Program-made: the position numbers and the translations under genes
Notes under the pieces: generated by a model
Database searches by the model: none
Seen by the model: the letters and a program-made list of their open reading frames with translations, nothing else
What the model was told of the DNA's origin: nothing
Shown: one piece after another, positions 58,061 through 62,030 of the stretch
How positions within the stretch are numbered: the first letter of the stretch is position 1
How the letters are laid out: each line of letters opens with the position of its first letter
Assembly (NCBI GenBank): GCA_019309045.1
Contig: JAFDGZ010000021.1
Location: forward strand, 1 to 64,000
Length of the DNA stretch: 64,000 nt
DNA from: Deltaproteobacteria bacterium
GTDB taxonomy: Bacteria; Desulfobacterota; Syntrophobacteria; BM002
Direction of reading: 5' to 3'

Positions 58061-58088
58061 TTGACAAAAACAATTTAATCTATATAAT
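58061..58088 (+). promoter_or_regulatory. Perfect-consensus sigma70 promoter upstream of cysE
   Basis: TTGACA at 58061-58066, a 16-base A/T-rich spacer and TATAAT at 58083-58088: twelve of twelve consensus bases. Transcription should start near 58095, about 290 bases before cysE, leaving a leader that contains a short cysteine-rich ORF. This is the strongest promoter-like signal I found in the window. Confidence 0.8.
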
Positions 58089-58132
58089 AGTAAAATAATA
58101 TGAATAGTTGCCCAGGGGGTGATGACGTGGAG

Positions 58133-58270
58133 ATGACCATGAGCGAAGACGATATGGGCTGTTGTGGTTGTCAAATTATGAGGAATTGGAAGGCGGCAAG
58201 CGGCAACTGCACGGTGTCTTCGGCAACCATGCTCTACGTACCAGTGCCCCTGACGCAGTACAGTCTTTGA
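58133..58270 (+). CDS. Short cysteine-rich leader ORF upstream of cysE
   Basis: 45 codons (47 if the GTG at 58127 is the start). The peptide begins MTMSEDDMGCCGCQIMRN and contains four cysteines at 10, 11, 13 and 26; the first three are TGT codons packed within four positions. GGGGGTGA upstream could serve as ribosome site for the GTG start. It lies about 38 bases after the predicted start of transcription and ends 113 bases before cysE. No homologue is known to me. The placement suggests a cysteine-sensing leader peptide, but it may be a chance frame. Confidence 0.4.
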   Translation: MTMSEDDMGCCGCQIMRNWKAASGNCTVSSATMLYVPVPLTQYSL

Positions 58271-58383
58271 GCCCACCTCCCCTTTCCACCTCAGGTTTCG
58301 CCTAGCGTCCACAAACGTTTTTCCAAACCTGCAATAGTAATCACAATGAGTATCGGCCATTTGCCGAAAGTTAGGGGAGTGAA

Positions 58384-59355
58384 ATGAGTGAAGCATACCA
58401 CCTGAGAGATAAAGAAGTCGAAGCCTGCCGTGTAGAGATTGACACTGCCGCAAAGTTCCGCAGGAAGCTGCCAGTGGTCGTTGGCAAGCTGGTGACCTCT
58501 GCCAGGGATCCCGAGCTCTTCTCCCATATTGATGCAGAAACCATTCCGTCCCTGGAACGCATCATAGATATATTACACCGTTCCAGGCGTCTGCTGTTTC
58601 CCGGCTATTTGAATGGGCAGGTTCTGGATGCAAACGCCTTGGAATATGTCATTGGCATGGAAGCGACCCGCTTGTTCGAGGATGTTGCCAAGCAGGTGGC
58701 CCTGAGCATCCGGCACGACTGTCAGAGGTACCAGATGGTGTGCACTCGCTGCCAGGAACGGGGACAACAGGAAGCTCTTCGTTTTCTCGAGGAGCTTCCC
58801 AGGATCCGCAACATACTCGCCACCGATGTCCAGGCAAGCTATGATGGCGACCCAGCTGCCAAGACCATTGATGAAGTTGTCATCAGCTATCCAGGAGTTC
58901 TGGCTATAACCGTGCACAGGATTGCCCACCAATTCTGGCAGCAACAGGTGCCTCTAGTGCCGCGAATGATGTCCGAGTATGCTCATAGTATCACCGGTAT
59001 CGACATTCATCCTGGGGCCTCCATTGGACCCAGTTTCTTCATTGACCATGGCACCGGCGTGGTAATAGGCGAAACTACCACCATCGGCTCGAGAGTACGA
59101 ATCTATCAAGGGGTAACACTTGGCGCCCTTTCTCTGCCCAAAGAGGAGGTGGAGCGTTTGCGGGGTGCAAAGCGACATCCCACCATTGAAGACGACGTCA
59201 CCATCTACGCCGGAGCTACTGTACTCGGCGGTGATACTGTCATTGGCGCTGGCGCGGTGATTGGCGGCAATGTCTGGATCACAGAATCGGTTCCTCCTGG
59301 AACCAAAGTTTTTCTGGCTCCACCCAAGCTGATCTACAAGAACTCCGTGAGGTGA
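58384..59355 (+). CDS. cysE: Serine O-acetyltransferase
   Basis: 323 residues. Makes O-acetylserine from serine and acetyl-CoA, the acceptor for sulfide in cysteine synthesis. The N-terminal helical domain is long (about 190 residues), as in the larger SAT subgroup; the left-handed beta-helix domain has [20 protein letters not shown] with the catalytic histidine, [13 protein letters not shown], and the hexapeptide run to [21 protein letters not shown] at 58384 after TTAGGGGAGTGAA; a 5-bp hairpin (TCGGC/GCCGA, 58353-58367) sits just before this ribosome site. cysK follows after 95 bases. Confidence 0.95.
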
Positions 59356-59450: not shown

Positions 59451-60365
59451 ATGAAAATTGCCAGCCTGATTGGCCATACCATCGGGAATACCCCGCTGGT
59501 GGAACTCAAGAGTATGGCAGGGGATCTGCCCGGGAAGATCCTTGCCAAATTGGAGTTCTTCAATCCTCTGGGTAGCGTCAAGGATCGCATCGGTCGGAGC
59601 ATGATCGAAGCGGCTGAAGTTGACGGCAGATTGAAGCCCGGCGGCACCATCATCGAGCCCACCAGCGGCAACACCGGCATCGCCCTCGCCATGGTTGCTG
59701 CCAGTAAAGGCTACCACCTCATTCTCACCATGCCGGAAACCATGAGCGTGGAGAGGCACAAATTGCTGCTGCGCCTGGGGGCAGAACTTGTCCTCACTCC
59801 TGGAAGCGAAGGGATGAAGGGGGCTATCAAAAAAGCTCAGGAATTGCTTGAGGCAAACAGCACAGGATTCATGCCTGATCAGTTTTCCAATGCTGCCAAC
59901 CCGACGGTGCATCGTGAGACAACCGCCCTGGAGATCTGGCATGACACAGACGGCAAGGTAGATATCCTGGTCTCCGGTGTGGGCACAGGCGGTACTATCA
60001 CCGGCGTTGCCGAAGTAATAAAAGAGAAGAAACCTTCTTTCCGGGCCATTGCCGTGGAACCCAGCGAATCACCCGTACTTTCCGGTGGCAACCCCGGTTC
60101 TCACAAGATTCAGGGAATCGGCGCCGGGTTTGTACCAGCTGTGCTGCGTCTGGATCTGGTGGACGAGGTCGTTCAGGTGGGATATGAGGAAGCTGAAGAA
60201 ATTGCCGCCCGCCTGGCTCGGGAGGAGGGAATCCTTGCAGGCATTTCCAGCGGCGCTGCGGTCTGGGCGGCTCTGCAGGTAGCTGGAAGAGAAGAGAATC
60301 GCGACAAGACCATCGTTGTTGTCCTGCCCAGCACCGGGGAGCGGTACATCAGCACCTGGCCATGA
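59451..60365 (+). CDS. cysK: Cysteine synthase A (O-acetylserine sulfhydrylase)
   Basis: 304-residue PLP enzyme forming cysteine from O-acetylserine and sulfide. The PLP lysine is K44 in [18 protein letters not shown] at 70-78 is the substrate-binding loop, and [10 protein letters not shown] and the C-terminal SSGAA bind PLP phosphate and pyrimidine. [20 protein letters not shown] is typical of CysK. ATG at 59451 after AGAGGAAGCTTCCT. Sits directly after cysE, so the two are probably co-transcribed. In a sulfide-producing cell sulfide supply is direct. Confidence 0.96.
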
Positions 60366-60800: not shown

Positions 60801-62030
60801 ATGGCTAAGACCATCCAGGAAATCAATGAAAAAATACGCCGAGGTCGGGCAGTGGTCTGTACCGCCGAGGAGGTTATCCAGATAGCAAAGAGTAAAGGCG
60901 CCAAGCAAGCTGCAGCCGAGGTGGACGTGGTCACCACCGGCACTTTTGCGCCCATGTGTTCATCCGGAGCCTATTTCAACGTGGGCCACAGCAAGCCGCG
61001 CATCAAGCTCGGCGGCGGCACCGTTACCCTGAACGATGTTCCCGTATATACCGGGTTTGCCGCTGTCGACTTCTTCTTGGGTGCTACCGCCGTGCCTGAC
61101 ACCGACCCGAGAAACACTATTTATCCGGGCAAATTCTCCTACGGCGGCGGCCATCTTATCGAGGATCTGGTAGCTGGCAAAGATGTCCAGCTTATCGCCC
61201 GCGCTTATGGTACGGACTGTTATCCGCGGCGCAAGCTCGAGACCTGGATCAGGCTCGAAGATATGAACGAGGCCGTGCTCTTCAACATGCGCAACTGTTA
61301 TCAGAACTACAATGTGGCAGTGAACCTTTCTGACCGGCTGATTTACACTTATATGGGAGTCCTGCAGCCCAATATGAGGAACGCCACCTATTGCAGCGCT
61401 GGCCAGTTGAGCCCGCTGCTCAATGATCCTTTCTATCGAACAATAGGGATAGGAACCCGCATCTTTCTTGGCGGCGGCATTGGCTATGTGGTGGGCAACG
61501 GCACCCAGCACAATCCCAGCGTACCTCGGACCGCCAAAGGCATTCCCCGCATGGGTGCCGGCACTCTGGCAGTCACTGGCAGCCTGAAGCAGATGAGTGC
61601 TCGTTGGCTCAGAGGAGCTTCCTTCACTGGCTATGGCGTCACCTTGGCGGTTGGCATCGGTATCCCCATTCCGATACTGGATGAGGACATGCTGCTATAC
61701 ACTGCCGTCACCGATGCAGATATCGTGGCGCAGGTGGTGGATTACAGTGAAGCTTATCCACACTACACTTCGGGAAATCTTGCTGAAGTGAGCTACGCTG
61801 AACTCAAATCAGGCTCAATTACTGTAAACGGCAAGAAAGTTCCCAGCGCTGGCCTTTCTTCCTATGTCCGCGCCAGGGAGATTGCCGAAATCCTCAAGAG
61901 TTGGCTAGAAAAAGGCTCCTTTCTGCTCACCGAACCGGCGGAAACTCTTGTTTCTGCCGATTCGGAAGTCGAATTCAAGCCCCTGCAGGAAAGGCCCATC
62001 CTAAACAACAACAGGGTGGCTGCCTCTTGA
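60801..62030 (+). CDS. Homocysteine biosynthesis protein (DUF39/HcyBio)
   Basis: 409 residues of the DUF39 family, shown genetically in methanogens to make homocysteine from aspartate semialdehyde and sulfide without O-acyl-homoserine. TGTFAPMCSSGAYFNVGHSK (C53), YGTDCYPRRKLET (C140) and VGNGTQHNPSVPRT are prominent conserved-looking segments; the two cysteines are candidates for persulfide or substrate chemistry. ATG at 60801 with GGAGGAGATTC. It is paired with a NIL-ferredoxin gene downstream, the arrangement known for this system. Gives the cell a direct sulfide route to methionine beside CysE/CysK. Confidence 0.9.
   Translation: MAKTIQEINEKIRRGRAVVCTAEEVIQIAKSKGAKQAAAEVDVVTTGTFAPMCSSGAYFNVGHSKPRIKLGGGTVTLNDVPVYTGFAAVDFFLGATAVPDTDPRNTIYPGKFSYGGGHLIEDLVAGKDVQLIARAYGTDCYPRRKLETWIRLEDMNEAVLFNMRNCYQNYNVAVNLSDRLIYTYMGVLQPNMRNATYCSAGQLSPLLNDPFYRTIGIGTRIFLGGGIGYVVGNGTQHNPSVPRTAKGIPRMGAGTLAVTGSLKQMSARWLRGASFTGYGVTLAVGIGIPIPILDEDMLLYTAVTDADIVAQVVDYSEAYPHYTSGNLAEVSYAELKSGSITVNGKKVPSAGLSSYVRAREIAEILKSWLEKGSFLLTEPAETLVSADSEVEFKPLQERPILNNNRVAAS

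Follow-up and report, generated by a model that had tools for sequence, protein, structure and literature searches.

The cysE-cysK operon of this Desulfobacterota bacterium is preceded by a short ORF with clustered Cys codons, which on balance we take to be a translated, cis-acting and cysteine-responsive leader (attenuator) of the operon, with a Rho-mediated scheme as the best explanation of its action. The ORF is very probably translated, as judged from the pattern of its sequence conservation, and its first codons carry an invariant acidic triad in addition to the Cys codons.

Organization of the leader and the cysE-cysK operon

All features of the locus lie on the forward strand of the window, the whole stretch of 64,000 nucleotides that was analysed. 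The sigma70-type promoter TTGACA-16-TATAAT (58061-58088) agrees with the consensus at 12 of 12 positions, as an earlier note on this DNA had stated, and its 16-nt spacing is kept in 11/11 genomes. The -10 box ends at 58088, which puts the expected transcription start near 58095. Positions 58114-58124 hold the Shine-Dalgarno region (AGGGGGTGATG) of the leader ORF, and its segment 58116-58124 doubles as the 5' arm of a predicted helix, P1. The strong Shine-Dalgarno stretch within it, AGGGGGTG (58114-58121), best fits a start at GTG 58127. The leader ORF itself, MTMSEDDMGCCGCQIMRNWKAASGNCTVSSATMLYVPVPLTQYSL (58127-58270, stop codon TGA at 58268-58270), consists of 47 codons if started at GTG 58127, 45 codons if started at ATG 58133, the start remaining in the one relative (L002) that is devoid of the GTG, and 56 codons if started at the in-frame, near-leaderless ATG 58100. 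Codons 5-7 encode the acidic triad Glu-Asp-Asp (58145-58153), and codons 10-13 (TGT TGT GGT TGT, 58160-58171) encode Cys-Cys-Gly-Cys, the cluster that the earlier note had pointed out in an ORF of 45-47 codons. Near the 3' end of the ORF is the other arm of P1, CAGTGCCCC (58242-58250), which reads CACCATCCC or CACCGCCC in most of the relatives. A C-rich and G-poor stretch, a candidate Rho loading region with a C-over-G excess of 20 in 70 nt, extends across the leader stop codon (58224-58293). The earlier note did not mention the acidic triad, the C-rich stretch or the helix that spans the ORF.

The cysE gene (serine acetyltransferase; 58384-59355), which commits serine to cysteine, starts 113 nt past the leader stop codon, its product being 71-76% identical to those of the relatives, and is followed by cysK (cysteine synthase, PALP; 59451-60365), in the order given by the earlier note. 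Next comes HcyBio (PF01837, homocysteine biosynthesis enzyme; 60801-62030), probably a further sulfur gene of the cluster; the segment 60801-62579 also encodes a small protein in which two ferredoxin-like Cys motifs occur. The presence of these two genes after cysK suggests a combined cysteine/homocysteine cluster. The leader peptide matched no Pfam family, and no known Rfam family was found at the leader locus; the sole Rfam match in the window was the bacterial large SRP RNA (RF01854, 23498-23758, reverse strand).

Between the leader ORF and cysE, no further promoter-like site was detected. On the forward strand of the scanned window region, no terminator-like hairpin was found, in agreement with the claim that a terminator with a U-tract is missing. 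The 5-bp hairpin TCGGC-CATTT-GCCGA that had been noted before the cysE ribosome site does exist (58353-58367), but it is not conserved in the relatives.

Conservation and selection of the leader ORF

By itself the window is unremarkable, and a Cys cluster in a single genome could be due to chance. The leader ORF is counted as real because it is conserved in 10 relatives, belonging to several genera and two families, all of which share the order promoter, Shine-Dalgarno site, ORF and cysE. The arrangement was found in all genomes of the window's family with a readable cysE upstream region (n=10, including the window), while an 11th instance is provided by L012, a Syntrophobacteria bacterium that belongs to the same class but to a different family. 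Three more genomes of the family (incomplete, 79-87%) gave no cysE match, and the element was absent from them as well. The layout in common is TTGAC(A/T)-16-TATA(A/C)T, 43-54 nt (between the -10 box and the leader ATG), the core ATG, 43-49 codons, a stop codon, 105-132 nt and cysE. The named relatives are metagenome-assembled and represent few independent lineages, the effective sequence number being 2.59 among the 11.

The distribution of the leader is narrow. Using both pattern and covariance searches, we detected one leader copy per genome, always at cysE. The leader ORF is missing from the cysE upstream regions of 100 unrelated loci in the phylum; short ORFs (8-80 codons) containing three or more Cys within 6 codons did occur there, but no more often on the sense strand than on the antisense strand (5 vs 9). 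The covariance model gave 0 matches in 90 of these 100 loci, and across the class it recovered only the same 11 sites, plus one match with E=0.37. When 84,980 species genomes were scanned, all other occurrences of the core fell within long coding frames of unrelated genes. The matches in Dehalococcoidia and Consotaella were thus set aside as chance; for instance, M-A-M-G-E-E-D-M-L-C, which equals the leader core pattern, occurs in a protein from Dehalococcoidia, about 260 aa in length (L046, L047, L052 and L053; DUF169-like, by eye), and is likewise located within a long coding frame.

Some features of the neighbourhood were observed in passing. In the related family f5 (L013-L032), cysE is mostly located directly downstream of a gene for a NifS/IscS-like cysteine desulfurase (by eye), and no leader is present. 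In genus g2 (L003, L008 and L010), a gene for an ArsR-type regulator, with a CVCE motif in its translation (by eye), is apparently divergent from cysE at about 400-560 nt before it; in the window, this place is taken by a gene for cytochrome b. The -10/+1 region of the leaders (58083-58108 in the window) shares a near-palindrome, CTA(C/G)TA-N6-7-TATGA(T/A), or ATCCTAC-N7-GTAGGAT in L012, which is also present in L014, a genome having the promoter without the leader ORF. This near-palindrome may be a repressor operator.

The mode of selection was estimated from the ratio of nonsynonymous to synonymous changes. Within codons 1-11 of the 11 sequences, pN was 0.10 and pS 0.65, giving a pN/pS of 0.16 in the ORF frame, while the two other sense frames gave 1.9 and 1.2. 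The leader frame is open to codon 43-49 in 11/11, whereas the alternative frames of the same stretch mostly contain stop codons. Because of this frame-specific constraint and the frame open in all instances, we conclude that the ORF is very probably translated and that its N-terminus matters as peptide. For codons 14-45, five divergent sequences gave a pN/pS of 0.96 (0.85 and 1.03 in the other frames) and four close relatives gave 0.42. The first dozen residues thus appear to matter as peptide, and the remainder, if at all, would matter as RNA or as distance. The invariant residues (11/11) are Met1, Met3, an acidic residue at each of positions 5-7, Met8 and Cys10. The adjacent pair Cys10-Cys11 is present in 10/11, so that the check proposed in the earlier note, a Cys-codon ORF under low dN/dS in relatives, came out positive and in this frame only. 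The number of Cys at the cluster ranges from 1 to 5, with five consecutive Cys in one relative. The exception is L002, in which the ORF is kept and the triad is Glu-Glu-Glu but a single Cys is left at the cluster. The acidic triad is therefore kept more strictly than the Cys cluster and, being retained where the cluster has decayed, is unexplained by Cys codons alone.

RNA folding and the proposed mode of control

The 11 leaders gave an RNAalifold consensus of -22.9 kcal/mol, compared with a column-shuffle mean of -11.05 (z -4.2). In this prediction, the basal helix P1 pairs the Shine-Dalgarno region of the ORF (58116-58124) with 58242-58250, and a second helix pairs the start-codon region (AUGGUCAU in relatives) with a GACCAU or GGCCAC segment. 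The paired cells amounted to 93%, as against 37-55% in slid-partner controls. The variation within the helix is mainly one-sided, and since two-sided changes are no more frequent than in shuffles of the 11 sequences, the alignment is consistent with pairing but is no proof of it. All of the 8 representative leaders were predicted to fold into a single closed hairpin as long as the ORF (z -1.3 to -3.0). In all 11 leaders, C outnumbers G by 17-23 in 70 nt at the same place, across the ORF stop codon; when the best stretch of each 250-nt segment of the window is taken, about 7% of the segments equal the weakest leader in this respect, the range across the leaders being 0.4-7%. The C-rich stretch was predicted to be slightly more open when the 5' arm is occupied than when the arm is free and the ribosome is stalled, a small difference observed in all 11. 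The genome encodes Rho.

Rho control of transcription is favoured because neither a terminator nor a conserved sequestration of the cysE ribosome site was found. In the scheme we propose, RNA polymerase would initiate at the consensus promoter and ribosomes would load at the strong Shine-Dalgarno site, the sensor being the first 10-13 codons, Met-x-Met-x-[Asp/Glu]3-Met-x-Cys-Cys. When Cys-tRNA is ample, ribosomes would reach the stop at about codon 45; the hairpin spanning the ORF would thereby stay unfolded and the C-rich stretch accessible, so that Rho could load and end transcription before cysE. When Cys-tRNA is scarce, the ribosome would pause at codons 10-13, possibly dropping off owing to the acidic triad just upstream; the 3' end of the ORF would then pair with its own Shine-Dalgarno region (P1), the C-rich stretch would be covered and transcription would reach cysE. 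The data back the existence and conservation of the ORF, the frame-specific selection, the conserved anatomy, the predicted helix and the C-rich base composition. Response to cysteine or Cys-tRNA is the step we consider quite likely, Rho as the executor is proposed tentatively, and ribosome drop-off at the triad is doubtful. An elaborated form, in which the triad 2-3 residues before the Cys codons makes a composite sensor, so that a shortage of Cys-tRNA leads to drop-off and not to a mere pause, and the ORF hairpin then shuts its own ribosome site, shields the Rho site and turns cysE on, is put forward as a rather speculative and, in our estimate, unlikely reading.

The leader could instead control the translation of cysE if the RNA structure that masks the ribosome site of this gene depended on where the ribosome stands on the ORF, which is how mycobacterial poly-Cys uORFs are described to act. 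According to PMC13236596, the cysteine genes of mycobacteria are subject to translation attenuation, and the cysE site AGGGGAG of the window (58369-58375) is able to base-pair with CTCCCCT (58276-58282). This pairing, however, is confined to the window, and no conserved alternative pairing was found at the cysE ribosome site of the 11 genomes. In most of the 11 genomes, that site is predicted to be about equally accessible on average whether the leader is free or stalled (0.47 in all states for the window), with no consistent change across the set, and about 210 nt separate cysE from the Cys cluster, which lies near the beginning of the ORF. A switch at the cysE ribosome site was rejected on this folding result, and translational control of cysE as a whole appears unlikely. 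An improbable alternative is a functional Cys-rich micropeptide, binding metal or thiol or acting as a partner of CysE, which would share the operon by chance and exert no regulation in cis. The strength of both promoter and Shine-Dalgarno site and the purifying selection on the conserved Met-x-Met-x-acidic3-Met-x-Cys-Cys N-terminus would fit such a product, but codons 14-45 lack peptide-level constraint among the divergent sequences, the varying number of Cys and the lack of a Pfam match argue against it, and conservation reaches into the Shine-Dalgarno region and the paired 3' segment.

The acidic stretch leads to another reading, in which ribosome destabilization by the N-terminus is the selected feature, a signal other than Cys-tRNA is sensed and the Cys codons are secondary. 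Acidic pairs in the first 30 residues can pause or destabilize ribosomes (PMC11282234, PMC8092293), and the triad persists even in L002. It is hard, however, to credit coincidence for adjacent Cys codons before cysE in 10 of 11 genomes, and L002, which also lacks the GTG start, may be decaying; we consider this reading very improbable. As a lead, the triad recalls the ribosome-destabilizing leaders mgtL and mgtQ of Salmonella, which likewise are short, contain acidic residues early in the peptide and, through their translation, govern how the RNA folds and how the downstream gene is expressed (PMC8092293, PMC11282234). In contrast to the present leader, mgtL and mgtQ are under Mg2+ control and use Pro and acidic codons, with no Cys codons.

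Relation to known cysteine leaders and implications

Cys-codon leaders have been described in other bacteria. Poly-Cys short ORFs were predicted before cysteine operons of Mycobacterium, Propionibacterium and Bifidobacterium (BMC Microbiol 2005, PMC1262725), for which Rho control was suggested in the same study, and those of M. smegmatis were tested and found cysteine-responsive (Canestrari et al. 2020, Mol Microbiol 114:93, as cited in PMC9094748 and PMC13236596). Like them, the present leader ORF is short, has its Cys codons clustered, is located upstream of cysteine or sulfur genes and lacks an intrinsic terminator. The actinobacterial Cys run, however, is located near the stop codon while the cluster described here occupies codons 10-13 of 43-49, and the mycobacterial uORFs are leaderless whereas here a strong Shine-Dalgarno site precedes the ORF, whose ATG is separated from the -10 box by 43-54 nt. 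Further differences are the phylum, the position before cysE, the ORF-long hairpin and the adjoining acidic triad, which is invariant, and sequence similarity is not claimed. In Rhodobacterales, the uORFC-8-2 motif before cysS, for which ribosome-mediated attenuation is proposed, includes an AUG uORF in which codons 14 and 15 both encode Cys (PMC8632094). A conserved uORF with adjacent Cys codons is common to both, but the gene downstream of uORFC-8-2 encodes cysteinyl-tRNA synthetase and the motif ends in a U-run intrinsic terminator, whereas here no U-run terminator was found and cysE lies downstream.

Compared with amino-acid attenuators in general, the locus has the short leader ORF upstream of a biosynthetic operon on the same transcript, as indicated by frame-specific selection and the one conserved upstream promoter, and the conserved cluster of codons for the product of the operon, with the exception of L002 and its one Cys; mutually exclusive structures with a U-run intrinsic terminator were not found. 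The leader thus shares the principle, and not the defining details, of the actinobacterial and Rhodobacterales Cys leaders.

The literature searched includes no report of a Cys-codon leader for Desulfobacterota or for cysE. The element is probably a Cys-sensing translated switch in one Desulfobacterota lineage; earlier reports of this kind of switch are confined to Actinobacteria and Rhodobacterales. With it, the range of Cys-codon leaders would come to include Desulfobacterota and cysE, the gene for the step that commits serine to cysteine, and the tie between the Cys cluster and the invariant acidic motif suggests that two ribosome-stalling principles are combined in one peptide. The element is small (about 300 nt) and directly testable with a reporter, and its recognition indicates that frame-specific selection can reveal short regulatory ORFs in uncultured lineages.
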